In this document: positions 1,892 through 25,145 of the stretch, one piece after another
Layout: each line of letters opens with the position of its first letter
Numbering within the stretch: the stretch's first letter is position 1
Origin: Bacteroidaceae bacterium
Lineage (GTDB): Bacteria; Bacteroidota; Bacteroidia; Bacteroidales; Bacteroidaceae
Direction: 5' to 3'
DNA: 64,000 bases
NCBI GenBank assembly: GCA_017427065.1
Contig: JAFRTL010000017.1
Location: 1 to 64,000 of the forward strand
The notes under the pieces: generated by a model
The model's input: only the letters and a program-made list of their open reading frames with translations
What the model was told of the DNA's origin: nothing
Databases searched by the model: none
Made by a program: the position numbers and the translations under genes

Positions 1892-2962
1892 ATGAGAGGC
1901 AGATTATTAGTAGCCCTGCTGTTGGTGGCTCTGTGTGGCAAGGCACAAGACCGGGCCGATCAGCAGCATTTGAGCGACCCTAACTCATTTTCCATGATTG
2001 TGCTAGGTGACCCGCAGGGTTATACAAAGTATGACATCAATCAACCGCTCTACGAGCTCACAACGGTGTGGTGTGCCGACAATATCGAGAATCTGAATAT
2101 CAAGGCGGTGCTGGTAACAGGCGACCTCGTGGAGCAGAATGACAACATTGTGCGCGACCGTAGGATGCTGAATCAAACCAGTCGGCAGATGTGGGAGTGG
2201 GCTTCTCATTGCATGGCTCGACTGGATAATAAGGTGCCTTACATCATCTCCACAGGCAATCATGAATATGGGTATGTGCGTGGTGATGAAGGGTTTACGC
2301 ACTTCCCCGAATATTTCCCTATAGAGCGTAATTCCAAGTGGCTGGAGTGCTGCGTGGCAGCTTTTCCTAACCGTGAGGGCAAAGTGTCACTTGAGAACTC
2401 GGCTTATGAGTTTGAGGATGCCCACTGGGGTAAATTGTTGGTGATCACCAGTGAATGGGCGCCACGCGACGAGGTGTTGCAGTGGGCTAAAGGCTTGGCC
2501 GACAGTGAGAAATATCAGAACCATACGGTCATTTTCATGACGCACTCTTTCCTTCGTCATCGCACAGCCGAGCGTACGGCCAATGAAGGGTACAAAATTC
2601 AACCGCGCAATTACGGTCAGGAGATTTGGGAGAAGCTGATTTATCCGTGCAAAAACATCCGATTAGTGGTGTGTGGCCATACGGGTGAGCCTGGCGACTT
2701 TGAGGACTCTGTGGCTTATCGTAATGACAAGAACTCTGCTGGCAAGAGCGTGCATCAGATGATGTTCAATGTACAGATTCTTGGTGGTGGATGGGAAGGA
2801 AATGGCGGTGATGGATGGCTTCGTATTCTGGAATTCCTGCCTGATGGAAAGACCGTGAAGGTGAAGACTTACTCTCCATTATTTGGCATTTCACCTTCTA
2901 CCAAGCACTTGGCACATCGTACGGGTGCCTGTGATCAGTTTGATATGGTGATAGAGAAGTAA
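1892..2962 (+). CDS. exported metallophosphoesterase
   Basis: A calcineurin-like phosphoesterase of 356 residues, probably periplasmic because it begins with a hydrophobic signal peptide ending near KAQD (about residue 20). Metal-site motifs are visible: LGDPQGY (about 38), TGDLVEQ (about 76), GNHEYGY (about 122), MTHSF (about 217) and CGHTGE (about 260). The first motif has Q where many relatives have H, so one metal ligand may differ. Substrate is not predictable. It sits 18 nt after pyrI and 4 nt before the next gene, suggesting at least a two-gene unit. Confidence 0.8.
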   Translation: MRGRLLVALLLVALCGKAQDRADQQHLSDPNSFSMIVLGDPQGYTKYDINQPLYELTTVWCADNIENLNIKAVLVTGDLVEQNDNIVRDRRMLNQTSRQMWEWASHCMARLDNKVPYIISTGNHEYGYVRGDEGFTHFPEYFPIERNSKWLECCVAAFPNREGKVSLENSAYEFEDAHWGKLLVITSEWAPRDEVLQWAKGLADSEKYQNHTVIFMTHSFLRHRTAERTANEGYKIQPRNYGQEIWEKLIYPCKNIRLVVCGHTGEPGDFEDSVAYRNDKNSAGKSVHQMMFNVQILGGGWEGNGGDGWLRILEFLPDGKTVKVKTYSPLFGISPSTKHLAHRTGACDQFDMVIEK

Positions 2963-2966
2963 ATAA

Positions 2967-3536
2967 ATGAAAGAAGACTGGAAACCTGGGACATTGATTT
3001 ATCCATTGCCGGCGGTGATGGTAAGCTGTGGATGTACGCCTGAGGAGTGGAACATCATTACGATAGGGTGGACGGGCACCATCTGTACCAATCCGCCGAT
3101 GTGCTATATCTCTGTGAGGCCAGAGCGTTATAGCTACGAGATCCTGAAGCGCAACATGGAGTTTGTCATCAATCTGACGAATAAGGACTTAGCACGTGAG
3201 ACCGACTGGTGTGGTGTGCGTTCTGGACGCGACTATAATAAGTTTGAGGAGATGCATCTCACACCTGGGAAGGCCACGGTGGTGAGTGCGCCTATCATCG
3301 AGGAATCTCCATTGAACATCGAATGTCGGGTGAAGGAGATTGTCTCACTGGGTTCTCATCACATGTTCATCTCTGAGGTGGTGAACGTACGTGCCGATAA
3401 GAAATGGCTCGATGCAGAGACTGGAAAGTTCATGTTGGCAGAGACCAATCCGCTGGTCTATGTGCATGGCGGTTACTACGAACTGGGGGAGAAAATCGGA
3501 AAATTCGGTTGGTCGGTAGAGAAGAAAACTACCTGA
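2967..3536 (+). CDS. flavin reductase family protein (flavoredoxin-like)
   Basis: A 189-residue protein of the FMN-binding split-barrel (flavin reductase-like) family. Family features seen include the N-terminal PLPAVMVSCG, the central ITIGWTGTICTNPP and CYISVRPERYS segments that usually line the FMN site, and FVINLTNKDL. Such proteins transfer electrons through bound FMN; the partner is unknown. It starts 4 nt after the phosphoesterase. Its last 8 bases overlap the 3' end of queE on the other strand, so the two genes converge with no room for a terminator. Confidence 0.85.
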   Translation: MKEDWKPGTLIYPLPAVMVSCGCTPEEWNIITIGWTGTICTNPPMCYISVRPERYSYEILKRNMEFVINLTNKDLARETDWCGVRSGRDYNKFEEMHLTPGKATVVSAPIIEESPLNIECRVKEIVSLGSHHMFISEVVNVRADKKWLDAETGKFMLAETNPLVYVHGGYYELGEKIGKFGWSVEKKTT

Positions 3537-13785: not shown

Positions 13786-16182
13786 ATGGCTAAGACTACA
13801 AAAGATAATAGTAAGAAACCAGTGCAAGAACCCAGCACTTCATTTTTTAGGGGAACAAAGGAGTTCTTCAAGAGTGATGGGTTGCATTTTTTCATTGGAT
13901 TGGTGTTCGTGGTATTGGCGTTCTACCTGCTTGTGACATTCACATCCTATTTTTTCAATGGGGCTGCTGATCAGAGTTTAGTAGAGAATGCTACTGCGGA
14001 AGAACTGGCCTCAGTGGACAATGGTATACAGAATGATGGAGGTTCGGTAGGAGCACGTGTATCACACTATTTCATCAACAATCTCTTCGGTGTGCCTGCT
14101 TATTTCATCGTGATTTTCCTTATGGTGGCAGGACTGAAGCTGATGCGTGTGCGTAAGTTCCGCTTGTGGAAATGGTTCATCTTCTGCATGTTGTTCATGT
14201 ACTGGGGATCCGTCTTCTTGAGTTTCGTGTTCCAACACATCTATCAGGATTCCTTCTTCTATTTAGGAGGTTTACATGGCTATAATGTTTCCCGATGGTT
14301 GGAATCACAAGTTGGGGCCACGGGTGTGTTCCTCTTGTTGTTGCTCACTGCCCTTTGCTTCCTGATCTATTTCAGTTCCAAGACAGTCATCTATCTGCGG
14401 AAGTTGTTTACACTTAGTTTCCTGAAGCGTCAGAAGAAAGAAGAACTGAAAGAAGAGGTCTCAGAAGAAGAAATAGAAGCTGAAGAAGAGAAAGAGAATG
14501 TATTCGACCTTCCATTGGAGAAAACGCCAACTGCCAAAGTAGAGAAAGTGGCAGATGACATGTATATGACAGTGCAGGAGAACGTGAAGGATGATACGAA
14601 AGCGGATGACTCCAAAGATCTCGACTTCATAGTGGAAAAGGCACCTGATACGGAAGAGGCAGATCCTTCGAAGCAAGAGCCCTACGATCCTCGTCTGGAT
14701 TTACAGTACTATAAGTTCCCAACAGTGGACTTGCTGAAACAATACGATGATGAAGGACCTTCCATCGACATGGATGAGCAGAATGCCAATAAGGACAGGA
14801 TCGTGAATACGTTGCACAGCTTTGGTGTGGAAATCAGCAGCATTAAGGCCACGGTGGGTCCTACTGTAACACTCTATGAGATCACGCCTGCACAAGGAGT
14901 GCGTATCAATAAGATACGCAACCTTGAAGATGATATTGCCTTAAGCCTTTCTGCACTCGGTGTGCGTATCATAGCGCCTATTCCTGGAAAGGGTACCATC
15001 GGTATTGAGGTGCCTAACGAGAAGAAAAATATCGTCTCAGGACAGAGTGTCATTGGCAGTAAGAAGTTCCAGGAATCGAAAATGGAACTTCCTTGTGCCC
15101 TTGGTAAGACCATCAGCAATGAGGTCTTCATGGTTGATCTTGCCAAGATGCCACACGTGCTGGTTGCTGGTGCTACCGGACAAGGTAAGTCGGTGGGTCT
15201 GAATGCCATGATCACGTCATTGCTCTATAAGAAACATCCTGCAGAGTTGAAGTTTGTGCTCGTGGATCCTAAGAAATTGGAATTCAGTATCTATTCAGCC
15301 ATAGAGAACCATTTCCTCGCAGAGCTGCCTGATAGTACAGAGCCTATTGTGACGGATGTGACGAAGGTGGTACAGACCTTAAACTCCGTGTGCAAAGAGA
15401 TGGATACGCGTTATGACTTAATGAAACTGGCTGGTGTGCGTAACATCAAGGAGTATAATGAGAAGTTTATCAACCGTCGCTTGAATCCTGAGAAGGGACA
15501 TCGCTACATGCCTTACATCGTGGTGGTGATCGATGAGTTTGGCGACCTTATTATGACGGCAGGACGAGAGGTGGAGCTTCCTATTGCCCGTATCGCACAG
15601 TTGGCTCGTGCGGCAGGTATTCACATGATCATCGCTACACAGCGACCTACGACCAACATTATCACGGGTACTATCAAAGCCAACTTCCCTGCACGTATTG
15701 CTTTCCGTGTGGCTTCCATGATCGACTCTCGCACCATCTTGGATCGTCCAGGAGCCAATCAGTTGATCGGTCGTGGTGACATGCTCTTCCTGCAAGGCTC
15801 TGATCCGGTGCGTGTGCAGTGTGCGTTTATTGATACTCCAGAGGTCAGCGATATCTGCAACTTTATCGCTAAGCAGCAGGGCTATACCTCTCCGTTCTAT
15901 CTGCCAGAACCCGATCAGCCAGATACAGATGGTCCTGCAGATGTGGATATGGAGCGTTTGGATCCTCTTTTTGAGGATGCAGCTCGTCTCATTGTGGTAC
16001 ATCAGCAAGGCTCTACGTCACTGATCCAGCGTAAGTTTGCCATTGGTTACAACCGTGCTGGGCGTCTGATGGATCAGTTGGAAAAGGCTGGCATCGTGGG
16101 AGCTGCACAAGGTTCTAAGCCGCGTGATGTCCTTATCTCCGATGAGATGTCTTTGGAAAATGTATTGGCTCAATTAAAATAG
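13786..16182 (+). CDS. ftsK: FtsK/SpoIIIE DNA translocase
   Basis: Septal DNA pump that clears and aligns chromosome termini during division. The 798-residue protein has a four-segment membrane domain in residues 30-210, a charged Glu/Lys-rich linker (about 211-300) and a RecA-type motor. Walker A is GATGQGKS at about 462-469, Walker B is VVVIDEFGDL, and the TQRPTTNIITG segment is typical. The C-terminal gamma winged helix that reads orienting sequences is present (FAIGYNRAGRLMDQLEKAG). It is followed after 7 nt by the LolA-like gene, and then by trxB. Confidence 0.95.
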   Translation: MAKTTKDNSKKPVQEPSTSFFRGTKEFFKSDGLHFFIGLVFVVLAFYLLVTFTSYFFNGAADQSLVENATAEELASVDNGIQNDGGSVGARVSHYFINNLFGVPAYFIVIFLMVAGLKLMRVRKFRLWKWFIFCMLFMYWGSVFLSFVFQHIYQDSFFYLGGLHGYNVSRWLESQVGATGVFLLLLLTALCFLIYFSSKTVIYLRKLFTLSFLKRQKKEELKEEVSEEEIEAEEEKENVFDLPLEKTPTAKVEKVADDMYMTVQENVKDDTKADDSKDLDFIVEKAPDTEEADPSKQEPYDPRLDLQYYKFPTVDLLKQYDDEGPSIDMDEQNANKDRIVNTLHSFGVEISSIKATVGPTVTLYEITPAQGVRINKIRNLEDDIALSLSALGVRIIAPIPGKGTIGIEVPNEKKNIVSGQSVIGSKKFQESKMELPCALGKTISNEVFMVDLAKMPHVLVAGATGQGKSVGLNAMITSLLYKKHPAELKFVLVDPKKLEFSIYSAIENHFLAELPDSTEPIVTDVTKVVQTLNSVCKEMDTRYDLMKLAGVRNIKEYNEKFINRRLNPEKGHRYMPYIVVVIDEFGDLIMTAGREVELPIARIAQLARAAGIHMIIATQRPTTNIITGTIKANFPARIAFRVASMIDSRTILDRPGANQLIGRGDMLFLQGSDPVRVQCAFIDTPEVSDICNFIAKQQGYTSPFYLPEPDQPDTDGPADVDMERLDPLFEDAARLIVVHQQGSTSLIQRKFAIGYNRAGRLMDQLEKAGIVGAAQGSKPRDVLISDEMSLENVLAQLK

Positions 16183-16189
16183 AAGTGTT

Positions 16190-16801
16190 ATGAAACGATT
16201 ATTTTGGACAATATGCCTGTTGCTCCCTCTATCACTGTGGGCGCAGGAAGACGCTTCTGTCATGCTGGAGCGTACAGCTGAGGCCATTCGTTCCTCACAA
16301 GGAATAAAGGCCACTTTCACCATTCAGGTGGAGGATGTAGAGACTTTGGGAACCATCTATCTGAAAGGTTCCAAGTTCAAATTGGAAACCGAAGATGTCA
16401 CCACTTGGTTCGATGGTAAAACCCAATGGACGCTGGTGGAACCTACCGAAGAAGTGAATATTTCAGAGCCTACAGCCGAGGAATTACAGAGCATCAATCC
16501 CTACGCATGGCTGTCACTCTATAAAGAAGGGTATAATGTGAAATATGGTGGTGGTGCCAATGAAGGCGAGCGCTCAATCATTATGACCACTTCCGTATCG
16601 CGCTTGGATATGCAGTGCATCGTGCTTACCATCAATGAACGTACCTTAGCACCCGTACGTCTGAGTATGGCGGGTAGGGGAGGCAGTGATGTGGCTGTGA
16701 TATTCATCAACTCCTACGATGATAAGCAGCACTATGCTGACGAGATGTTTACCTATCCCGCAGAGAAGTATCCCAATGTGGAGGTAGTGGACTTAAGATA
16801 A
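16190..16801 (+). CDS. LolA-like outer-membrane lipoprotein carrier
   Basis: A 203-residue periplasmic protein with signal peptide MKRLFWTICLLLPLSLWAQ. The pattern of a half barrel follows (GIKATFTIQVEDVETLGTIYLKGSKFKLETEDVTTWFDGKTQWTLV read in pieces), the FDGKTQW box being typical of LolA/LolA-like proteins, which carry lipoproteins from the inner to the outer membrane. It lies 7 nt after ftsK, an arrangement common in Bacteroidota. It might instead be one of the looser LolA-like relatives; true LolA activity is inferred. Confidence 0.8.
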   Translation: MKRLFWTICLLLPLSLWAQEDASVMLERTAEAIRSSQGIKATFTIQVEDVETLGTIYLKGSKFKLETEDVTTWFDGKTQWTLVEPTEEVNISEPTAEELQSINPYAWLSLYKEGYNVKYGGGANEGERSIIMTTSVSRLDMQCIVLTINERTLAPVRLSMAGRGGSDVAVIFINSYDDKQHYADEMFTYPAEKYPNVEVVDLR

Positions 16802-16828
16802 TTGACAATTAATAATTCGTAAAATACC

Positions 16829-17764
16829 ATGGAGACAGAAAAAGTAAGATTGCTTATTATCGGTTCTGGCCCTGCTGGATATACCGCAGCTATTTATGCC
16901 GGACGAGCCAACCTTAGTCCTGTGCTTTATTCAGGATTGCAACCAGGTGGACAGCTCACCACAACTACCATCGTGGAGAATTTCCCTGGACATCCACAGG
17001 GAATAGATGCCAACCAACTGATGGAGGACATGCGTCAGCAGGCAGTCAACTTTGGTGCAGATATTCGCAACGGTGTGGCTACGAAGGCAGACCTCAGTGC
17101 CCGTCCGTTTAAGATCACCATCGATGATGAGAAACTCATAGAGGCCGATGCTTTGATTATCGCTACAGGAGCGGCAGCTCGTTATCTGGGATTGGAAGAT
17201 GAGAAGAAATATGCAGGCATGGGTGTGAGTGCATGCGCCACTTGCGATGGCTTTTTCTATCGTAAGAAAGTGGTGGCTGTAGTAGGTGGTGGTGATACTG
17301 CTTGCGAAGAAGCTACCTATTTGGCAAGTTTGGCAAAGAAGGTCTATCTCATCGTGCGAAAACCATTCCTGCGTGCTTCGAAGATCATGCAAGAGCGTGT
17401 GATGCTGAATGAGAAGATCGAGGTGCTTTTCGAGCACAATGCCGAAGGTCTCTATGGTGATAACGGTGTAGAAGGCGTTCATCTCGTTAAACGTTTAGGA
17501 GAGTCCGATGAGAGTCATTACGACCTTCCTATCGATGGCTTCTTCCTAGCCATTGGTCATAAGCCAAGTTCCGACATCTTCAAAGATTACTTAGAGGTAG
17601 ATAAGGCTGGTTATATTGTGACCGAAGGTGCTACGCCACGTACCAATATCCCTGGCGTATTTGCCGCAGGTGATGTGGCAGATCCTCACTATCGTCAAGC
17701 TATCACTGCTGCCGCTAGTGGTTGTAAGGCTGCTATAGAAGCAGAGCGCTTTCTTATGAAGTAG
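16829..17764 (+). CDS. trxB: thioredoxin-disulfide reductase
   Basis: FAD enzyme that reduces thioredoxin with NADPH in the cytoplasm. The 311-residue length is typical. Seen: the FAD-binding GSGPAGYTAAIYAGRA at about residue 12, the redox-active C136-A-T-C139, the NADPH-binding GGGDTACEEA and the C-terminal GVFAAGDVADPHYRQAITAAASG. It is the last gene of the ftsK-lolA-like-trxB run, 27 nt after its neighbour, and its stop codon is inside the stem of a terminator. Confidence 0.96.
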   Translation: METEKVRLLIIGSGPAGYTAAIYAGRANLSPVLYSGLQPGGQLTTTTIVENFPGHPQGIDANQLMEDMRQQAVNFGADIRNGVATKADLSARPFKITIDDEKLIEADALIIATGAAARYLGLEDEKKYAGMGVSACATCDGFFYRKKVVAVVGGGDTACEEATYLASLAKKVYLIVRKPFLRASKIMQERVMLNEKIEVLFEHNAEGLYGDNGVEGVHLVKRLGESDESHYDLPIDGFFLAIGHKPSSDIFKDYLEVDKAGYIVTEGATPRTNIPGVFAAGDVADPHYRQAITAAASGCKAAIEAERFLMK

Positions 17765-17795
17765 AAGCGCTCTACTTCTTGTTTTTTTTCTTTTT
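17758..17795 (+). terminator. trxB intrinsic terminator
   Basis: GAAGTAGA (17758-17765), a 5-nt loop, TCTACTTC (17771-17778), then a long T-tract. The stem contains the trxB stop codon. Confidence 0.85.
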
Positions 17796-17817
17796 CGCCT
17801 TGTCAGCGGGGGGCATT

Positions 17818-18032
17818 CATTTCTTTTGCTCGTGCAAAAGAAACGAACCAAAGAAAACACGCCGACTGCACTTCCGCAGCTAAAAATCAGGGGCTTTTAC
17901 CTAAGCGCCGCAAGACATCTCCTTCGGAGATTTTGCGGTGCGGCGCTTTTAACGGTAAAAACCCCTGATTTTCTTTACGCTGCTCCAGTGAGGTCGGAAT
18001 CCTATTTGCAACATCGCTTTGCTCGTTGCTAG
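17818..18032 (+). repeat. hairpin repeat element, type 1, copy A
   Basis: A roughly 215-nt non-coding unit. It begins with the palindrome CTTTTGCTCGTGCAAAAG and continues through CACTTCCGCAGC. A long stem follows (ATCAGGGG...TTTTACC with GGTAAAA..CCCCTGAT), then an apical stem GCGCCGC...GCGGCGC capped by CTCCTTCGGAG. It ends in CCAGTGAGGTCGGA and CAACATCGCT. It matches copy D at 24880-25081 in reverse orientation and is an architectural relative of copies B and C. Confidence 0.85.
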
Positions 18033-18045
18033 AAAAACAAGTTAT

Positions 18046-18813
18046 TTATCTTTGATTATTTTCCCATTCTTGATGGTATTTATACCATTTTCCGCTGTGT
18101 GCACCCAAAGCACCAATTTGTCTAGGATGAACTAAAGGAAGTATATTGTACGTCTTACCATTTATGCTAGTTTGAGAAGAATTACCATATCCATACAAAT
18201 CGACATATTCCTGAATGCTCTTATAATTAACTTTAGCTATTCGGTTCAGAAACTGGAGAATAGGAACGTCACCAAGAAGAATTAAAGTCTCTGCTTGAGA
18301 TTCTTCCAATTCTGAAACAATTTCCTCACTACGAGCCTGGTCACAGAAAATAGTTGGTCTTATAGGAATGGTGACTTCATTTAACCCATATAGCTTTGCT
18401 TTAGGTTCGTATTCATTCTTTATGATCTTGAATTGGTTTGGATTCAATCTTGTCTCTGGCAACAAGTCACAAAGCCAGGCATCCTTACGTGTTAATCCTA
18501 ATGGGGCAAGTATTTGATTATCCAATACTCTCGCTGATGGACCATTCAAGTGAATCCCTGTCGGTTCCAATGTACCTATTTGTTCAGGGATATGGATTCT
18601 GCGAATAATGTTCGCAGCTTCATCTGGATTACCATCCCAGAAAATCCGAGGCTCACTTGAAACAGCAAGCGCTTGGCATACTATCTTATTACCCTTTCTC
18701 CATCTGGCATGTACGGCACTTGCATAAACTCCCAACACAAAGACCTTCTTGGGGCTTCTGTCTTGTTGAACTAAGGAATGAACAGTTTCTCCGAACGGGA
18801 AATAGTAATTCAT
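18046..18813 (-). CDS. uracil-DNA glycosylase superfamily-like protein
   Basis: A 255-residue protein I cannot name with certainty. The opening FPFGETVHSLVQQDRSPKKV, the hydrophobic strand VFVLGVYASAVHARW, LNGPSARVLDNQILAPLGL, LILLGDVP and the C-terminal LPLVHPRQIG resemble UDG-superfamily folds, with VHPR in the place of the catalytic loop. The base composition looks more AT-rich than its neighbours. It lies alone between two inverted hairpin repeats (17818-18032 and 18902-19110) and has its own consensus promoter, so it looks like cargo. DNA-base excision for repair or phage defence is inference. Confidence 0.55.
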   Translation of the reverse strand: MNYYFPFGETVHSLVQQDRSPKKVFVLGVYASAVHARWRKGNKIVCQALAVSSEPRIFWDGNPDEAANIIRRIHIPEQIGTLEPTGIHLNGPSARVLDNQILAPLGLTRKDAWLCDLLPETRLNPNQFKIIKNEYEPKAKLYGLNEVTIPIRPTIFCDQARSEEIVSELEESQAETLILLGDVPILQFLNRIAKVNYKSIQEYVDLYGYGNSSQTSINGKTYNILPLVHPRQIGALGAHSGKWYKYHQEWENNQR

Positions 18814-18851
18814 ATTCTATTTAGATTTAAAAAACTACAAAAATTGTTTTT

Positions 18852-18883
18852 CAAAATTAGATTACAATTTCAAATTAAACAAA
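18852..18883 (-). promoter_or_regulatory. promoter of the UDG-like cargo gene
   Basis: Minus-strand TTTG (18883-18880), a 20-nt spacer and TAATTTTG (18859-18852), an exact consensus, 39 nt before the start codon and inside the inverted repeats. Confidence 0.7.
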
Positions 18884-18901
18884 TCTTGGAGATAAATAAA
18901 G

Positions 18902-19110
18902 TTAGCGATGTTGTGTCAAAGACTCCGACCTCACATCTGGAGCGTAAAGAAAATCGGGAAAGTTTTCCGTTAAAAAGCGCGGGCTGTTTGAGCAAGCGTA
19001 GCTTGCGAGTTTTCGCGCTTTAGGAAAACGTGAGCGATTTTTAGCGGAAGATGTGCAGTTGGCGGCGCTTCTTTTGATTCTTTTCTTCGAGCTGTAGCGA
19101 AGAAAAGAAT
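18902..19110 (-). repeat. hairpin repeat element, type 2, copy B
   Basis: Read on the minus strand it begins ATTCTTTTCTTCGCT..AGCGAAGAAAAGAAT-like palindromic sequence and goes on through CTGCACATCTTCCGC and AAAAATCGCTCACG. A variable apical stem (GCGCG...CGCGC enclosing CGCAAGC/GCTTGCG) follows, then GGAAAACTTTCCCGATTTTC, CCAGATGTGAGGTCGGA and CAACATCGCT. Its outer parts match copy C (24615-24834) closely; the apex differs. Together with copy A it encloses the gene at 18046-18813. Confidence 0.85.
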
Positions 19111-19176
19111 AAGAAAGCATTAAGAAAAAGAAACACGATTGATAAAAGAAACGAAAAAGAAATAAGCAGAATCGGA

Positions 19177-19878
19177 TTAACCAATTCTGCTTATTTTTTT
19201 CAACTTCTCTTCATCAATCAACTTAATCTTTCTACCATCAATCGCAATCAGATGCTCGGAAGCGAATTGGGAGAGTGTGCGAATAGCATTCGAGGTCGTC
19301 ATATTTGAGAGGTTGGCCAGATCTTCACGCGAGAGGTAGATGCTCAGTGTAAAGCCATCCTCCTCAACACCATAGCTATCTCTCAGAAGCAGCAAGGACT
19401 CTGCCAAGCGTCCGCGGATATGCTTCTGAGTGAGGTTTACCGTACGTTGATCGGCCACATCCAATCCGTGCGAAAGACGCTCGATGATGAAGTATGCCAA
19501 CTGATTGTTCTGCTTTACCAGTGAATCGAGGATGACAAGTGGAATCTGGCAAATCACAGACGACTCTACGGTAGTTGCCGTACAGATATAGTCTTCATGG
19601 GAGAAATAGGCGTGATAACCGAAATACTCCACAGGTTTATACAGACGGATAATTTGATTTCTTCCACCAACGCCTTCCTTATAAATCTTTACCTTTCCAG
19701 CAAGCAGACACATCATGTGCGTGGGAGTTTCACCTTCCACATAAATGTGCTCATTCTTCTTGTAGCTCTGGAGAGTGATGTTAGACGACAATAACTCACG
19801 CTGCTCCTCATTGAGGGGAGCCCATAAGTCTGCCAATAGAATTGGGATGTCCGCGTTAGTTGGAGTAATTCTAACCAT
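19177..19878 (-). CDS. Crp/Fnr family transcriptional regulator
   Basis: A 233-residue cytoplasmic regulator. Residues about 25-130 form a cyclic-nucleotide-binding-type beta roll (KKNEHIYVEGETPTHMMCLLAGKVKIYKEGVGGRNQIIRLYKP, read as strands). Residues about 150-215 are a Crp-type winged helix with the recognition segment LSREDLANLSNMTTSNAIRTLSQF. No Fnr-type N-terminal cysteine cluster is seen, so oxygen sensing by 4Fe-4S is unlikely; the ligand is unknown. It has its own promoter and no operon partner. Confidence 0.88.
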   Translation of the reverse strand: MVRITPTNADIPILLADLWAPLNEEQRELLSSNITLQSYKKNEHIYVEGETPTHMMCLLAGKVKIYKEGVGGRNQIIRLYKPVEYFGYHAYFSHEDYICTATTVESSVICQIPLVILDSLVKQNNQLAYFIIERLSHGLDVADQRTVNLTQKHIRGRLAESLLLLRDSYGVEEDGFTLSIYLSREDLANLSNMTTSNAIRTLSQFASEHLIAIDGRKIKLIDEEKLKKISRIG

Positions 19879-19907
19879 CTTTCTACCTAAATACCTAATT
19901 ACCTCCG

Positions 19908-19915
19908 CAAAAGTA
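19908..19915 (-). promoter_or_regulatory. -7 box of the Crp-family gene
   Basis: TACTTTTG on the minus strand, 30 nt before the start codon; the -33 region is AT-rich without a clear TTTG. Confidence 0.5.
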
Positions 19916-19998
19916 GTAATAATTATTATAATTGTTCCATTTTTGCCGATTTTTTTGATTTAAACTGCCTTTTTTATGCCGAAAATCGTATAAATTTG

Positions 19999-20006
19999 TA
20001 TCTTTG
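19999..20006 (+). promoter_or_regulatory. -7 box of the cytidylate-kinase-like gene
   Basis: TATCTTTG, 24 nt before the start codon, with a T-rich run at the -33 distance. Confidence 0.6.
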
Positions 20007-20029
20007 CTACGATATAAAACTAAATAATT

Positions 20030-20665
20030 ATGGATAAATTCGTTATCACCATCAATCGCCAGTTTGGTTCTGGTGGACATGAAGTAGGCGACTTACTAGC
20101 CAAGCGCCTGGGAGTGAAGATCATCGATAAGGAAGTGGCTCAAGCCATTGCCAAAAAATTCGAGATGACGCAGGAAGAATTCGATAAGATAGACTACCGC
20201 AAACCTAGTTGGTGGGAAGAGTTCACCATGTTCTATAGTCCTTTCGCTGCTATGGGAAGCCAGCGTACCACTGTCGACAAGGCAGTGACCTCCCGTCAGA
20301 TGTATTTGGAACAGACGGAACTACTGAAGAAGTTGGCTGAAGAAGAGTCGTGCATTGTCATCGGTAGGTGCGCTTTCCATATCTTTAAGAATCATCCTCA
20401 TAGTATACGCGTCTTTGTACATGGCAGTGAGGAACGTCGTTTGAAGCACGCTATGGAGTATTTCAAGGTGGGTGAGGAAGAAGCCCGCAAGATGATGGAA
20501 GATACCGACAAGAAACGCTACGATTACATCAAGAAGTACACGGGTACCAGTGGCTACGATGTACGCAACTACGACTTTACCTTCAATGCCGACGAACTGA
20601 GCATTGAGGAGATGGCTGACATCATCTATGACCACCTTGCCAGTAAGGTAGATTTGAAAGCATAG
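20030..20665 (+). CDS. cytidylate kinase-like family protein
   Basis: A 211-residue P-loop protein of the cytidylate kinase-like family. The N-terminal [23 protein letters not shown] has a modified nucleotide loop (GSGG in place of GxxGxGK), and [10 protein letters not shown] plus [15 protein letters not shown] follow as in the family. Nucleoside-phosphate phosphorylation is likely, but the physiological substrate is not established for these proteins. The stop is 80 nt before the glyA start, which has a promoter of its own. Confidence 0.85.
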
Positions 20666-20707
20666 ATTTTGCCACCTTTCATTATTGCATAATACAAAGG
20701 ATTGCAC

Positions 20708-20715
20708 TATCTTTG
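20708..20715 (+). promoter_or_regulatory. glyA promoter, -7 box
   Basis: TATCTTTG at 20708-20715, 30 nt before the glyA ATG. It rules out the longer in-frame start at 20713, which lies inside the box. Confidence 0.65.
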
Positions 20716-20745
20716 CACCGCAAATTAAACAAATTATCCAAAAGT

Positions 20746-22026
20746 ATGAAAAGAGACGATTTAATCTTTGAGATTATCGAGAAAGAACATCAGCGCCAAC
20801 TGAAAGGCATTGAGCTGATTGCATCTGAAAACTTCGTAAGCGACCAGGTGATGCAGGCCATGGGCTCTTGCCTCACCAACAAGTATGCCGAGGGCTATCC
20901 TGGCCATCGCTATTACGGTGGTTGCGAGGTAGTGGACATGAGTGAGAATATCGCTATCGAACGTATCAAGGAACTGTTTGGTGCCGAGTATGCCAACGTG
21001 CAGCCACACTCTGGTGCCCAGGCTAATGCTGCTGTGCTGTTGGCTGTCCTCAAGCCTGGTGATAAGTTCATGGGACTGAATCTGGATCAGGGTGGACACC
21101 TTTCTCACGGCTCTCACGTGAATACTTCTGGTATCTTATACACCCCACTAGCCTACAATCTGAATCCTGAGACGGGTCGCGTAGATTACGACCAGATGGA
21201 GGAGATTGCCCTGCGTGAGCGTCCAAAGCTCATCATCGGTGGTGGTTCTGCTTACTCTCGTGAGTGGGATTACGCACGCATGCGTAAGATTGCCGATGAG
21301 GTAGGCGCTTTGCTGATGATCGATATGGCACATCCTGCAGGTCTTATCGCTGCTGGTTTGCTGGACAACCCAGTGAAGTATGCTCACATCGTGACTTCTA
21401 CCACCCACAAGACCCTCCGTGGTCCTCGTGGCGGTATCATCCTATTGGGTAAGAACTTCGAGAATCCTTGGGGCCTCGCTACCAAGAAAGGCGAGATCAA
21501 GAAGATGGGCGACCTGATCAATTCAGCTGTATTCCCAGGACAGCAGGGTGGTCCGTTGGAGCATGTCATTGCTGCTAAGGCAGTGGCCTTCGGTGAGGCT
21601 CTGCAGCCAGAGTTCAAGGACTATCAGAAGCAGGTGAAGAAGAATGCGGCTGTACTGGCACAGGCACTTATGGATCGTGGCTTCAAGATCGTATCCGATG
21701 GTACCGACAACCACTCTATGCTGGTTGACCTTCGCACCAAGTATCCAGAACTCACTGGTAAGGTAGCAGAGAAGGCACTGGTAGCTGCAGATATCACTGC
21801 CAACAAGAACATGGTGCCATACGACACCCGTTCTGCTTTCCAGACCTCAGGTATCCGCTTGGGAACTCCTGCCATCACTACTCGTGGTGCCAAGGAAGAC
21901 CTCATGCTCGAGATTGCTGAGATGATCGAAAAGGTCCTCAATGCTCCAGAAGACGAGAAGGTCATCAGCACTGTTCGTGCTCACGTCAACGACCTGATGA
22001 AGAACTATCCAATCTTCGCTTATTGA
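20746..22026 (+). CDS. glyA: serine hydroxymethyltransferase
   Basis: PLP enzyme converting serine and tetrahydrofolate to glycine and methylene-tetrahydrofolate, the main one-carbon source. The 426-residue length is typical. Seen: [11 protein letters not shown] near the N-terminus, [13 protein letters not shown], the PLP-binding segment [14 protein letters not shown] with the catalytic lysine, and GTPAITTRG near the C-terminus. The start at 20746 is set by the -7 box at 20708-20715. Transcription ends at the hairpin just downstream. Confidence 0.97.
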
Positions 22027-22044
22027 TAGTCGCCTCATAAATAC

Positions 22045-22083
22045 AAATAGCCCCCTTTCATTATGAGAGGGGGCTATTTTTAA
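22045..22083. terminator. glyA terminator, probably bidirectional
   Basis: AAATAGCCCCCT and AGGGGGCTATTTTT form a strong stem with a U-tract, between the convergent glyA and carboxylesterase genes. Confidence 0.88.
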
Positions 22084-22122
22084 TGGTAATTTTGGCTTCG
22101 CGAAGAAGTCTTCTTAGTAGCC

Positions 22123-23517
22123 TTATTCCTTAATCTTGAACTCGTGAATCACTGGGTTTGTCTTTGTGGCAGGAGCCCAGGCATTGCCTGTCTGACCATT
22201 AGGATTGCCGTATTTGGCAAAGTTGGTCCAAGCATCTACCATCTCATCAGACAACCGGTAATCGGCTTCGGTGAATGGGCGCCAGCTGCGTCCTAAGGTA
22301 TGGAATACAAACCACAGTTCGCTGCTGTGGAAGGCTCCTTGGAGGCTTTCACGTCCATCAGAAGGTAACTTACGATCGAACAGATAGCAATAGGTGGGCT
22401 TGGTGGACAGGGAGTCGCGTACTGAAGCAAAGTTCAGAATAGGTTGACTCAAGTCTGCCATATCATCTGACGTATAGCCAAGCATGTAAGGCACATCAGC
22501 CAAGGTACCATCGTAGGTGGCCTGTTCGAAACTCTTGTCCATCACCACACCGTCGATGTGTGGAGACATGGCTATGCCTGCTGTCCTTGGGATGCTGCTG
22601 TGGGCATCATAGATGGTTTGGGCATTGGCTGCACGCATCTCTGCAAGGGTGTTGAAGCCCATAGTCTTGAGCATCTCGTCACCACCCTTATCAAGATCTG
22701 CTTGTGTTTGGCCACCTCCTGAAGGAATGAAGTCGCCCAAACCTCCACCGCTTTGTACGATGGCTTTGGCTATCAATCCCTTACTCATAGGAGAGACACA
22801 GAGGTTGCGAATACTGGCACCACCAGCACTCTGTCCGAAGACAGTGATATTGTCAGGGTCGCCACCAAATTGGGCGATGTTGTTCTTAATCCATTGCAAG
22901 GCTGCTATCTGATCGAGCAAGCCATAGTTGCCAGATACGTGATCGGGATCTTCTGCCGACAGTTCGGAATGGTTCAGGAAACCGAAGATGCCTAAGCGGT
23001 AGTTGATGGTGACCAGAATGACATCACGCTGTGCCCAAGCATCGCCATCCATCTCCATCTCGAAGCCCCAACCACCGAAGTAAGCCCCACCGTGTACCCA
23101 CATGGCTACAGGCAACTTCTTCTCAGGATGTCCAGGGGCATATTGTGGTGCCCATACGTTGAGGTAGAGGCAGTCTTCAGAGAAATTGGGGTCGTCGCTA
23201 CGGAAATGGAACTCGGTGCCGTACTGACCGTCTTGCGGATTGCGTATGCGCTGCATGGCAGCATCACTGAAGGTATCAGCCACCTTCACGCCTTGCCATG
23301 CTACGACTGGCTGTGGACGCTTCCAACGCAAATCGCCCACAGGAGGGGCTGCATAGGGTACGCCTTTATATACTAGGACGCCTTCGGCTTCTGACTTTAC
23401 GCCTTGTATCTGTCCGCCTTCAATGCTAAGCACAGGGTTCTCGTCTGACTGATTTACTGTAGTGGTACAACCAGTCAGTAGAGCAGTAAATAGAAGTAAC
23501 AAACTAGTTTTTTTCAT
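22123..23517 (-). CDS. carboxylesterase family lipoprotein
   Basis: A 464-residue type-B carboxylesterase anchored as a lipoprotein (lipobox LLTGC at the end of a short signal peptide). Family blocks seen: VLVYKGVPYAAPPVGDLRWKRP in pieces, EDCLYLNVWAP, WVHGGAYFGG forming the oxyanion hole, and the nucleophile elbow FGQSAGG. FHSSELWFVF carries the likely catalytic His. The elbow reads GQSAG rather than the usual GESAG. Natural substrates are unknown; acetyl or other acyl groups on plant polymers are possible in this setting. Confidence 0.88.
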   Translation of the reverse strand: MKKTSLLLLFTALLTGCTTTVNQSDENPVLSIEGGQIQGVKSEAEGVLVYKGVPYAAPPVGDLRWKRPQPVVAWQGVKVADTFSDAAMQRIRNPQDGQYGTEFHFRSDDPNFSEDCLYLNVWAPQYAPGHPEKKLPVAMWVHGGAYFGGWGFEMEMDGDAWAQRDVILVTINYRLGIFGFLNHSELSAEDPDHVSGNYGLLDQIAALQWIKNNIAQFGGDPDNITVFGQSAGGASIRNLCVSPMSKGLIAKAIVQSGGGLGDFIPSGGGQTQADLDKGGDEMLKTMGFNTLAEMRAANAQTIYDAHSSIPRTAGIAMSPHIDGVVMDKSFEQATYDGTLADVPYMLGYTSDDMADLSQPILNFASVRDSLSTKPTYCYLFDRKLPSDGRESLQGAFHSSELWFVFHTLGRSWRPFTEADYRLSDEMVDAWTNFAKYGNPNGQTGNAWAPATKTNPVIHEFKIKE

Positions 23518-23542
23518 ATATCGTTTTGTAAGAGAATAAGGT

Positions 23543-23576
23543 AAAAAAGGCGGGTAATCACTTACTCGCCTTTTTG
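23543..23576. terminator. terminator after the TerB-like gene
   Basis: AAAAAAGGCGGGTAA and TTACTCGCCTTTTT form a stem with poly-U on either strand, 18 nt beyond the stop at 23594. Confidence 0.82.
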
Positions 23577-23593
23577 CATTTTATGTCTCGCTT

Positions 23594-23959
23594 TTAGATC
23601 AGCTTCTTCCACCAAGCATCGAGATATGCTAACTCAGCACGATCCTGATTGCTGTCGGAATTGATGACTTGCTGTGCAAAGCCCAAGAGGGTAGCCTTGA
23701 TGGCTGCACGGTCATTGCCCTGGAAGTCGTCCAACAAATCGTTGGTGTCGGCTACTATTTCATCGAGGGTGTAGGCACGGTTGATGCTGTCGCCCAACAC
23801 AGCCTTAAGGTCTTCGACATTTCCTTGGCTAGCCAGCTTCTGAATGAAGTTGCTGATGAAGCTTTGCTCCTTGGCACTGTAGGTTCCATCGCAGTGTGCG
23901 AAGAACAAACCTAACTTAACAATCAGTTTAATTATTTTTGATATTGCATTGGTATTCAT
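23594..23959 (-). CDS. TerB-like helical protein
   Basis: A 121-residue, mostly helical protein. The segment GLFFAHCDGTYSAKEQSFISNFIQKL resembles the metal-binding repeat of TerB/DjlA-type proteins (an Asp-Gly acidic pair followed by E), and the second half ends with DRAELAYLDAWWKKLI. TerB domains are associated with tellurite resistance and membrane-linked stress complexes, but no other ter gene is here. It follows the GGIDLG-repeat gene after 20 nt, so the two probably form an operon and may act together. Confidence 0.7.
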   Translation of the reverse strand: MNTNAISKIIKLIVKLGLFFAHCDGTYSAKEQSFISNFIQKLASQGNVEDLKAVLGDSINRAYTLDEIVADTNDLLDDFQGNDRAAIKATLLGFAQQVINSDSNQDRAELAYLDAWWKKLI

Positions 23960-23979
23960 AAATTTATCCTCCTTAAATT

Positions 23980-24504
23980 TTATCTTCCTGCATAAGAATT
24001 ACCAGCCATGCCAATGACGCTGATCACGCTCTTGGCAATGTCGCCTAAGTCTAAACCTTTGCCTCCACCAGCGATAGCTCCAAGAATGCTACCGAGGTCG
24101 ATGCCACCTACAGACACACCGTTAGAGCGAGATGCTCCAGCTTGGGTAATTTGTCCAAGAATAGCTCCCAAATCAATACCGCCAGCAGCTGCGCCACTAG
24201 ATGCACCACCACCCAGAACTGAGCCAAGTACAGAACCAAGTACGCTGCCGCCACCACTTCTGCCGCCGCCACCAAGTACTGAACCGAGCACGCTACCGAG
24301 GTCGATACCACCTCTGGATTGTTGCTGTTGCTGTTTCTTAGAGGCACCACCAACAATGTCGCCAACGATTCCACCGAGGTCAATGCCACCAGTTTTTGCA
24401 CCTCCACCCGTGGCTCCAGATACTGCACCACCGATGATGCTTCCCAAATCGATACCACCACTCTGTGTGGCCGATTTCAAGATGTTTTCAAGTAAACTTC
24501 CCAT
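23980..24504 (-). CDS. glycine-rich GGIDLG-repeat protein
   Basis: A 174-residue low-complexity protein I do not recognise. It contains five exact GGIDLG units followed by (S/G/A)(I/V)(I/V/L)G, and a degenerate GLDLGD near the C-terminus, separated by Gly/Ser/Ala linkers and a QQQQQ stretch. There is no cleavable signal peptide; the N-terminus MGSLLENILKSATQSG looks amphipathic. It is distantly like DUF937/YidB-type glycine-leucine repeat proteins, but that is weak. The long opposite-strand reading frame here is a by-product of the repeats. It precedes a TerB-like gene. Confidence 0.6.
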   Translation of the reverse strand: MGSLLENILKSATQSGGIDLGSIIGGAVSGATGGGAKTGGIDLGGIVGDIVGGASKKQQQQQSRGGIDLGSVLGSVLGGGGRSGGGSVLGSVLGSVLGGGASSGAAAGGIDLGAILGQITQAGASRSNGVSVGGIDLGSILGAIAGGGKGLDLGDIAKSVISVIGMAGNSYAGR

Positions 24505-24614
24505 GATATTAAATTAATAATAAAGTTATTTGGTCATTAATTTGGGTGCAAAATAGTGAGATTATTTTAATTCACAAAATTTTTTATTCATTTCTTTTGC
24601 TCGTAGCATTATTT

Positions 24615-24834
24615 ATTCTTTTCTTCGCTGCAGCTCGAAGAAAAGAACCAAAAGAAGCGCCGCCGTCTGCACATCTTCCGCTAAAAATCGCTCACGTTTT
24701 TGGGAGGGGCGCAAGACGACCCCCTTCGGGGCTCTTATTGGTGCACCCCTCTTTTCCAAAAACTTTCCCGATTTTATTAACGCTCCAGATGTGAGGACGG
24801 GATTTTTGACGCAACATCGCTTTGCTCGTTGCTA
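24615..24834 (+). repeat. hairpin repeat element, type 2, copy C
   Basis: Plus-strand copy closely matching copy B outside the apex: ATTCTTTTCTTCGCT..., GAAGCGCCGCCGTCTGCACATC, AAAAATCGCTCACG, then CCAAAAACTTTCCCGATTTT, CCAGATGTGAGG and CAACATCGCTTTGCTCGTTGCTA. Its apex (GGGGCGCAAGACGACCCCCTTCGGGG) is of the copy-D kind, so apex and arms appear to have been exchanged. Confidence 0.85.
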
Positions 24835-24837
24835 CCC

Positions 24838-24877
24838 CCCTCTTTATCTCCCCCTTGGGGGGGAGACTAAGAGAGGG
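24838..24877. repeat. REP-like hairpin CCCTCTTTATCTCCCCC/GGGGGGGAGACTAAGAGAGGG
   Basis: A 40-nt imperfect palindrome with a TT loop, placed exactly between copies C and D. Its form is like common bacterial REP sequences. It takes the place that the UDG-like gene holds between copies A and B. Confidence 0.65.
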
Positions 24878-24879
24878 AG

Positions 24880-25081
24880 CCGTGTTGTGCGCAGCCTTTT
24901 CCGACCTCACTGGAGCAGCGTGAAAAGATTGTGAGTTTTTACCGTTAAAAGCGCTGCACCAATTAGAGCCCCGAAGGGGGTCGTCTTGCAGCGCTTAGGT
25001 AAAAACGAAACAATCTTAGCTGCGGAAGTGCAGTCGGCGTGTTTTCTTTGGTTCATTTCTTTTGCACGAGCAAAAGAAATG
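24880..25081 (-). repeat. hairpin repeat element, type 1, copy D
   Basis: Read on the minus strand it matches copy A: CATTTCTTTTGCTCGTGCAA, AACCAAAGAAAACACGCCGA, CTGCACTTCCGCAGC, then GATTG..TTTTTACC with GGTAAAAA..CAATC, apical GCGCTGC/GCAGCGC capped by CCCCTTCGGGG, and CCAGTGAGGTCGGA. The lower stem differs from copy A on both sides in a compensatory way. Confidence 0.85.
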
Positions 25082-25145
25082 AATGAGCACCTTTGCTACG
25101 AGCAAAAGGAATGAAAAAAGAAAAGAATAGAATAGAATAGAGATC

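Follow-up and report, generated by a model that had tools for sequence, protein, structure and literature searches.

We examined a stretch of 64,000 nucleotides from a Bacteroidaceae bacterium (contig JAFRTL010000017.1 of assembly GCA_017427065.1; hereafter the window) that carries two pairs of inverted hairpin repeats, the first around a gene of 255 codons with a predicted uracil-DNA glycosylase (UDG)-like fold and the second around no gene. An earlier note on this DNA had described four repeat copies, and all four arms (A to D) lie where it placed them. The first locus begins with the outer hairpin of arm A (17816-17847, plus strand, loop GCTCGTGC), followed by the alpha-type nested hairpin core of this arm (17862-17997, plus strand), which is the same arm at the orthologous site in a sister species (G023, L108) and in a third species (G404, L314 1782-1917). 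An unstranded inner spacer bearing a GCAACATCGCTTTGCTCGTTGC motif that recurs beside other arms (17998-18045) leads to the cargo gene (18046-18813, minus strand), which resembles UdgX and family-4 UDGs in its predicted structure and has no counterpart between the arms of G404. Its AT-rich upstream region, together with the inner spacer of arm B (18814-18924, unstranded), is followed by the beta-type core (18925-19062, minus strand) and the outer hairpin (19077-19110, minus strand) of arm B. The second locus comprises the outer hairpin (24615-24648, plus strand) and beta-type core (24663-24800, plus strand) of arm C, a gene-free, unstranded inner spacer (24801-24900), and the alpha-type core (24901-25037, minus strand) and outer hairpin (25052-25083, minus strand) of arm D. 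The second pair, described earlier as enclosing only a REP-like hairpin, has ~100 nt between its arms and no gene there. No Rfam family reached its gathering score in the window, and no plasmid copies of the second pair were found.

Compared from the outside in, arms A and D were 85% identical and arms B and C 78%, with A/B and C/D inverted. Each arm consists of a short outer hairpin (roughly 10-14 bp, varied in sequence), a CAAAGAAA-type linker and a nested hairpin of ~137 nt. The 210-nt hairpin proposed earlier is real as a family, but its unit is an outer hairpin of ~30-35 nt plus a nested hairpin of 136-138 nt. If uninterrupted, the core spans 129-139 nt and folds into a single long hairpin of nested stems, at whose base CCGNCT pairs with GGNCGG; arm ends in the window's own genome (G000) and in G023 are CCGNCTGC..GAGGNCGG. 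Above the base, a TCC/TCC internal loop is preceded by 4 bp and followed by 5 bp in alpha arms, and preceded by 7 bp and followed by 2 bp in beta, gamma and delta arms, this last stem being weak (76.6% of cells paired). Three apical modules occur combined with several basal types. Two arm types had been distinguished in the window, a division that is genuine at the stem base (TCC/TCC loop after 4 or 7 bp) but not in the apical part, which is a shuffled module. The reversed order of types at the second locus is likewise seen, but merely reflects the same two-ended unit in the other orientation. No inversion event is needed to explain it; the first composite is oriented alike in all three species (G000, G023 and G404).

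In G000 (2,503,399 bases in 27 contigs, 83.4% complete), the first site has the order trxB-armA-UDG-armB-crp, and UDG is present likewise in the sister species, whose UDG locus matches window positions 14,728-21,226 at 90.7% identity (6.5 kb) in the same orientation. In G404 (L314), a trxB-like gene (792-1730) and a crp-like gene (2410-3111) lie on either side of one alpha and one beta arm, and the stretch from arm to arm is gene-free. Aligned to the window, the DNA of G404 was 80% identical from the trxB side through arm A, 91% over arm B and 83% on the crp side, and the UDG stretch had no counterpart between the arms. Thus, a cargo gene has been gained, or lost, between retained arms at this site. 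That such a pair can carry a gene and can lack it, as the earlier note supposed, is borne out by the alignment of occupied (G000, G023) and empty (G404) states, in which trxB, crp, both flanks and both arms are kept. At the second window site, G404 has a single 107-nt hybrid (L314 8896-9002) that joins the outer half of a gamma arm to that of an alpha arm, the pair having collapsed by deletion across it.

For the cargo protein, neither Pfam (E ≤ 0.001) nor PADLOC (0.1) gave a family match, and the best weak profile matches (DUF3920, 0.088; an OXA-60 model, 0.11) lay far below the cut-offs. An AlphaFold2 model of the 255-aa protein, built on an alignment of 27 sequences (A1: the window protein and those from 26 of 52 UDG loci, L178 having been dropped), reached a pLDDT of 92.7. 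Using this model, Foldseek returned UdgX and family-4 UDGs (best E = 2.3e-5), and all 32 matches at E ≤ 0.001 were UDGs (TMq 0.36-0.50). The description of the gene as UDG-like, which has no Pfam family behind it, is consistent with this confident model, and the protein has a predicted UDG fold resembling those of UdgX and family-4 UDGs. Relatives at the 52 loci were mostly labelled Prevotella or Bacteroidales from ruminants, with some Clostridia and others. Flanks were inspected at 28 of these loci, and at several (L132, L134-L136, L138, L139) the homologue lies between short motifs of opposite sense, ATAAATCGGAATTT-like upstream and TAAATTCCAATTT-like downstream, which look like another single-gene route of movement there.

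Across G000, matches at E ≤ 0.001 numbered 37 for arm A and 42 for arm C (fragments and self-matches counted), far above chance. The arms lie mostly in inward-facing pairs, with some single, and all 23 mapped sites were intergenic (17 between tandem genes, 4 convergent, 1 divergent, 1 at a contig edge). Among 13 complete pairs, one enclosed an open reading frame (ORF) of more than 98 codons, namely the window's first pair with UDG. The duplicates L116 and L120 and one cross-arm regex hit were dropped. A comparison of the two genomes that took in 12 of the 23 G000 sites gave 11 comparable sites in common and 3 that differ: G023 lacks one pair (L068 5511-5970), and G000 lacks the single arms of L110 and L115. 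At these three polymorphic sites, whose flanks are just ~85-90% alike, no clean target duplication was seen. The earlier note had envisaged a mobile unit that carries and loses cargo; carriage and loss stand, and the site comparison (11 common, 3 different, no clean duplication) suggests weakly that the composite moves as a unit. Arm types had often changed at sites common to both genomes, which we infer to be conversion among copies, subject to mis-assembly of metagenome-assembled genomes (MAGs). Two L107 sites, where alpha is on the opposite side, at first looked like composite inversions; this was rejected, as the arm types differ and the second site is collinear in both its flanks and its spacer. 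At the first, where the contig starts, one flank was comparable.

We then searched other genomes with a covariance model built from non-alpha arms (R1; strict filters, 20 candidates scored per genome), which matched at E ≤ 0.001 in 41 of 158 same-genus genomes, in some of them weakly and at a single place. A deeper search covered six chosen genomes. Matches were confined to one region in G439 (11/11, assuming a circular contig), G026 (9/9), G442 (11/11) and G003 (20/21); in G404, 23 matches were scattered across many contigs, the pattern of G000 and G023 too, and G446 had 1 match. Array regions were inspected in G439, G349, G003, G026 and G442. The first four of these hold or adjoin capsule-type genes (from translated ORFs, with Pfam for one glycosyltransferase), and a model of alpha arms (R2) found no additional arm in them. 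An exact pattern of the outer motif occurred in 7 of 295 genomes of the order, including G000 and G200, and the reversed pattern in none. In G256, G281 and G329, from other families, the outer hairpin is backed by large hairpins, and by eye G256 also has the nested motif and the paired arrangement; a match in G105 was rejected as low-complexity sequence lacking the hairpin. Arm-like outer hairpins with the same linker were also observed on 3 of 5 motif-matching viral-classed IMG/VR contigs (L207, L208, L210), the other two (L209, L211) being discarded as simple A/G-rich matches.

With arm types assigned by eye from listings of the array regions, all plus-strand arms of G439 were of type L and all minus-strand arms of type R. 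Polarity was opposite in G349, with one odd arm, and G003 and G442 use other type pairs. Adjacent inward-facing pairs were heterotypic in 29 of 29 cases across the five array regions (24/24, including one pair with a short 64-nt arm; 4/4 in G442; one more in G349). Alpha arms were paired with non-alpha arms in 11 of 13 pairs of G000 (shuffle P = 0.02) and in 6 of 6 of G023 (P = 0.07), and the mean within-pair identity was below the all-arm mean in both (0.69, P = 0.06, and 0.66, P = 0.003, respectively).

In 18 of the 29 array pairs there is no ORF of at least 150 codons, ten enclose a gene of a recognised family, and the remaining pair contains a doubtful ORF of 218 aa with no family assigned. 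The enclosed genes are Fic, RhuM and Abi_2 in G439; ATPase_2/DUF234, AbiEii with DUF6922/HTH, DUF7017, Abi_2 and a 172-aa Fic ORF in G349; and DUF7017 and an AAA_14/DUF4143 ATPase in G442. PADLOC matched 7 of the 9 enclosed proteins scanned, a set outside which fall two enclosed G442 genes and the short Fic ORF. One site, S1, is flanked by a VapE-like primase gene and an HU-HIG gene and holds Fic in G439, an AbiD-type Abi_2 gene in G349 and nothing in G026 and the more diverged G003. Among G439, G349 and G026 the DNA on either side of S1 agrees at 82-92%, and identity drops in the case of G003. In G026 the primase is set apart from S1 by a block of further genes, and in G442 an empty pair is found on the HU side only. 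A second site, S2, has Abi_2 in G439 and is empty in G349, with one flank 94% alike. The two Abi_2 proteins are 36% identical, and so are not recent copies of each other. G439 and G003 have RhuM proteins of 98.8% identity and primases of 65% identity, and the DUF7017 and DUF6922/HTH genes have different neighbours in different genomes. At these slots, as at the window site, the alignable sequence stops at the arms or a little way within them. Enclosed genes are often of anti-phage or toxin type and are present, different or missing by species. Together, one-gene and empty states occur at the same orthologous site with arms kept at both the window and primase-HU sites, and two different genes occur at the latter. 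The outcomes that would have spoken against the earlier note, copies occurring only singly with random neighbours or cargo never differing, were not what we found.

We propose that an unlike, inward-facing hairpin pair marks an intergenic slot whose interior can stand empty or contain one or two accessory genes, these being acquired, exchanged for others and lost, a reading to which we give a probability of roughly 0.62. The slot ends would be retained while the interior is exchanged. Arms and inner spacers, which slots have in common, may serve as the sites of recombination by which cargo is exchanged, probably ordinary homologous recombination with incoming DNA and not the work of a dedicated enzyme. 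The arms might stay unlike since instability would be expected of an empty slot that formed a perfect long palindrome, or since the two ends differ in role, or both.

Several observations weigh against the slot reading. Most pairs are empty (12/13 in G000, 18/29 in the arrays) and single arms occur, so carrying genes is not their sole role. The idea that UDG and the arms together make up a mobile unit was considered and rejected, as by blastn only the sister site carries arms among the 52 UDG-gene loci. RhuM in G003 has one neighbouring arm only. Of 10 sampled array genes not enclosed by a pair, 3 likewise gave a PADLOC match; between pairs there are DUF4143 ATPases and an AbiJ_NTD4 protein, and a DUF234 ATPase lies between two empty pairs of G003. 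In G200, two arms stand around an exonuclease-like gene in a core-looking dnaN neighbourhood (L242 1701-2474; names from translations), and arms may therefore simply bracket a resident gene. In G000 there is a clear exception to heterotypy (L069, arms 97% alike), and the P values above are modest. Arms are dispersed in G000, G023 and G404, not gathered in one array, and several genomes are fragmented MAGs, in which assembly errors at repeats are possible; the assemblies of G439, G003 and G026 comprise 1-2 contigs. Finally, a T-G pair at the stem base, conserved in 52 of 55 cores, would be tolerated by RNA too.

The stems of the arms change in a coordinated manner. Among 33 non-alpha arms (32 distinct), 90 changed cells were two-sided and 2 one-sided, with 97.0% of cells paired; among 20 alpha arms the counts were 27 and 3, with 96.6% paired. 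None of 500 shuffles reached the covariation score of either group, and slid structures dropped to 24.6-56.0% paired. A measure of further pair types did not exceed shuffles (500/500 and 175/500 as high). The structures were derived from the same sequences on which they were scored, which biases these figures in their favour. In 52 cores (3 of 55, longer than 145 nt, were left out) we counted 2468 Watson-Crick pairs, 8 flanked G-T and 15 flanked A-C pairs, using an alignment that scores G-T and A-C alike and does not register the conserved stem-base T-G. The scarcity of variable G-T wobbles, together with the two-sided changes, suggests that the structure is formed or corrected at the DNA level.

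Template-switch correction of DNA hairpins in replication could by itself produce such coordinated changes without selection on structure, a possibility we take seriously while thinking it somewhat improbable. It would account for two-sided changes vastly outnumbering one-sided ones, and at the same site in G030 and G336 (L236 and L238) the loop of one outer hairpin is reverse-complemented from one species to the other (TTTCAAGA versus TCTTGAAA), suggesting flipping of a DNA hairpin. However, the TCC/TCC and other internal loops remain unpaired at fixed places, uncorrected.

The arms could also be passive interspersed palindromic repeats, a Bacteroidales analogue of bacterial interspersed mosaic elements (BIMEs) kept by spread and gene conversion, with slots a mere impression. 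On this view they occupy gaps between genes in variable regions, where accessory genes come and go at the rate seen elsewhere. The intergenic position of 23 of 23 mapped G000 sites would fit, as would the clustering of arms in one region in G439, G003, G026 and G442, the first three near capsule-type genes. Regions of capsule-type genes are often variable. Module shuffling and arm-type changes at common sites point to conversion among copies, and the arms bracketing a core-looking gene in G200 agree with passive placement. Nevertheless, cargo differs while both arms and both flanks stay at the window site and S1, and 29/29 heterotypy and the uniform polarity along the G439 array would be unexpected for random placement. 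We consider passive repeats rather unlikely.

A dedicated structure-specific recombinase or single-strand nuclease might instead act on the folded arms in an integron-like manner, L and R being functionally distinct ends. Heterotypy and polarity of L and R would fit this, and it could draw on the conserved TCC/TCC loop, on the nested GC-TA..TTNAC-GC motif (seen by eye in other families too) and on the differences between the sister species in whether a pair or a single arm is present. Yet a Pfam scan of 32 array proteins turned up no recombinase, neither clean junctions nor target duplications were seen, and the Y1 transposase domain (PF01797, Y1_Tnp) had no match in G000, G030, G336, G200, G017 and G032 and stayed below the cut-off in G023, the array genomes not having been searched. 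We judge such an enzyme improbable. By analogy one may picture a gene-cassette system of Bacteroides and relatives, in which a host factor on folded DNA would insert, swap or remove single defence or toxin-antitoxin genes between paired, inverted, unlike L/R sites, much as integrons use attC; this is a doubtful extension.

Mobilisation in trans, which the earlier note had invoked, is unlikely where a transposase of repetitive extragenic palindromes (REPs) is meant. PF01797 exceeded its cut-off in 4 of 11 genomes searched, the domain is missing in the six arm-bearing genomes just listed (G030, G336, G200, G017 and G032 being arm-bearing by motif and fold, not by R1), and at the four loci of REP-associated tyrosine transposases (RAYTs) inspected the outer motif was not beside the gene. 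On these genomes, which do not include the array genomes, we rejected this transposase as the mover. PMC6006769 mentions 'atypical secondary structures' beside Bacteroidetes TnpA-REP of subclass 2.6, a lead that was not borne out at the four RAYT loci.

An action at the RNA level, with arms as bidirectional terminators or insulators shielding acquired genes and neighbours from read-through, is improbable as well: the intergenic placement (17/23 between tandem genes), Watson-Crick stems that fold on both strands, the conserved stem-base T-G and the bounding of UDG and other cargo on both sides would suit it, but most pairs have no gene to shield, a single simple terminator would suffice in place of two large unlike hairpins, and variable G-T pairs, normally common in RNA, are rare in the arms.

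Each element of the slot reading has known analogues, in interspersed palindromes, cassette arrays and hot spots. Like REPs, BIMEs and the paired REPs termed REPINs, the arms are intergenic palindromes, often two inverted, in several classes and many copies. The REPIN/BIME unit, according to PMC3733652, is a 20-40-nt palindrome with a GTAG or CGTC tag, whereas the arms are ~190 nt long with nested stems, a core of 129-139 nt and ends CCGNCTGC/GAGGNCGG, bear no such tag, and in pairs can enclose exchangeable genes. As in integron arrays, imperfect folded hairpins lie among accessory and toxin-antitoxin genes in one chromosomal region. However, the arms are not direct repeats at one per cassette: apart from a few L-gene-L-(gene)-R runs they mostly form heterotypic pairs in inverted orientation, of which more than half are empty. 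Their CCGNCTGC..GAGGNCGG ends in G000 and G023 are unlike the consensus of attC core sites, and no IntI-type tyrosine recombinase was found by Pfam among the 32 array proteins, whole genomes not having been searched. Miniature inverted-repeat transposable elements (MITEs) share the character of short non-autonomous repeats with inverted ends, present or absent between relatives, but have near-identical terminal inverted repeats, while ends here are unlike (mean within-pair identity 0.69 in G000, 0.66 in G023); the interior is exchanged while the ends stay, and the three polymorphic sites, with flanks ~85-90% alike, showed no clean target duplication. As at defence hot spots, the same site holds a different defence-type gene in different relatives, but a slot is bounded by a repeat pair that recurs at many places in each genome and not by one core-gene pair. 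FopS paralogous small RNAs of Bacteroides are, according to PMC11697453, a multicopy non-coding family in Bacteroidaceae, occurring also in a phage, and in being such a family the arms resemble them. The anatomy given there, a single-stranded 5' part and a terminator hairpin, differs from that of the arms, and with no Rfam family matching the window we rejected this identity.

Our literature search found no description of these arms. If slots are real, this intergenic repeat deserves annotation, and the arms would provide a sequence handle with which genes open to exchange, many of them of defence type, could be located in genomes of the Bacteroides group. Occupied and empty sites would then form a natural series for studying single-gene entry into and exit from chromosomes without an obvious transposase.

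Other repeats were observed in and around the arms. At L115 3310-3515 compared with L231, the gap in G000 where the arm is missing is filled by AATTGTGAATTGTCAATT-type repeats, which also border several arms. A second hairpin repeat of ~70 nt (GCTGCA..CTCGGCATAG..AAGCTTG..CTCTGC..TTTGCAC and variants) sits inside several arms (L061 11895-11957, L067 6751-6813, L068 3110-3176, L072 3124-3185, L114 3117-3325, L314 2093-2303), often at a T run and at positions differing between copies, and appears to be independently mobile.

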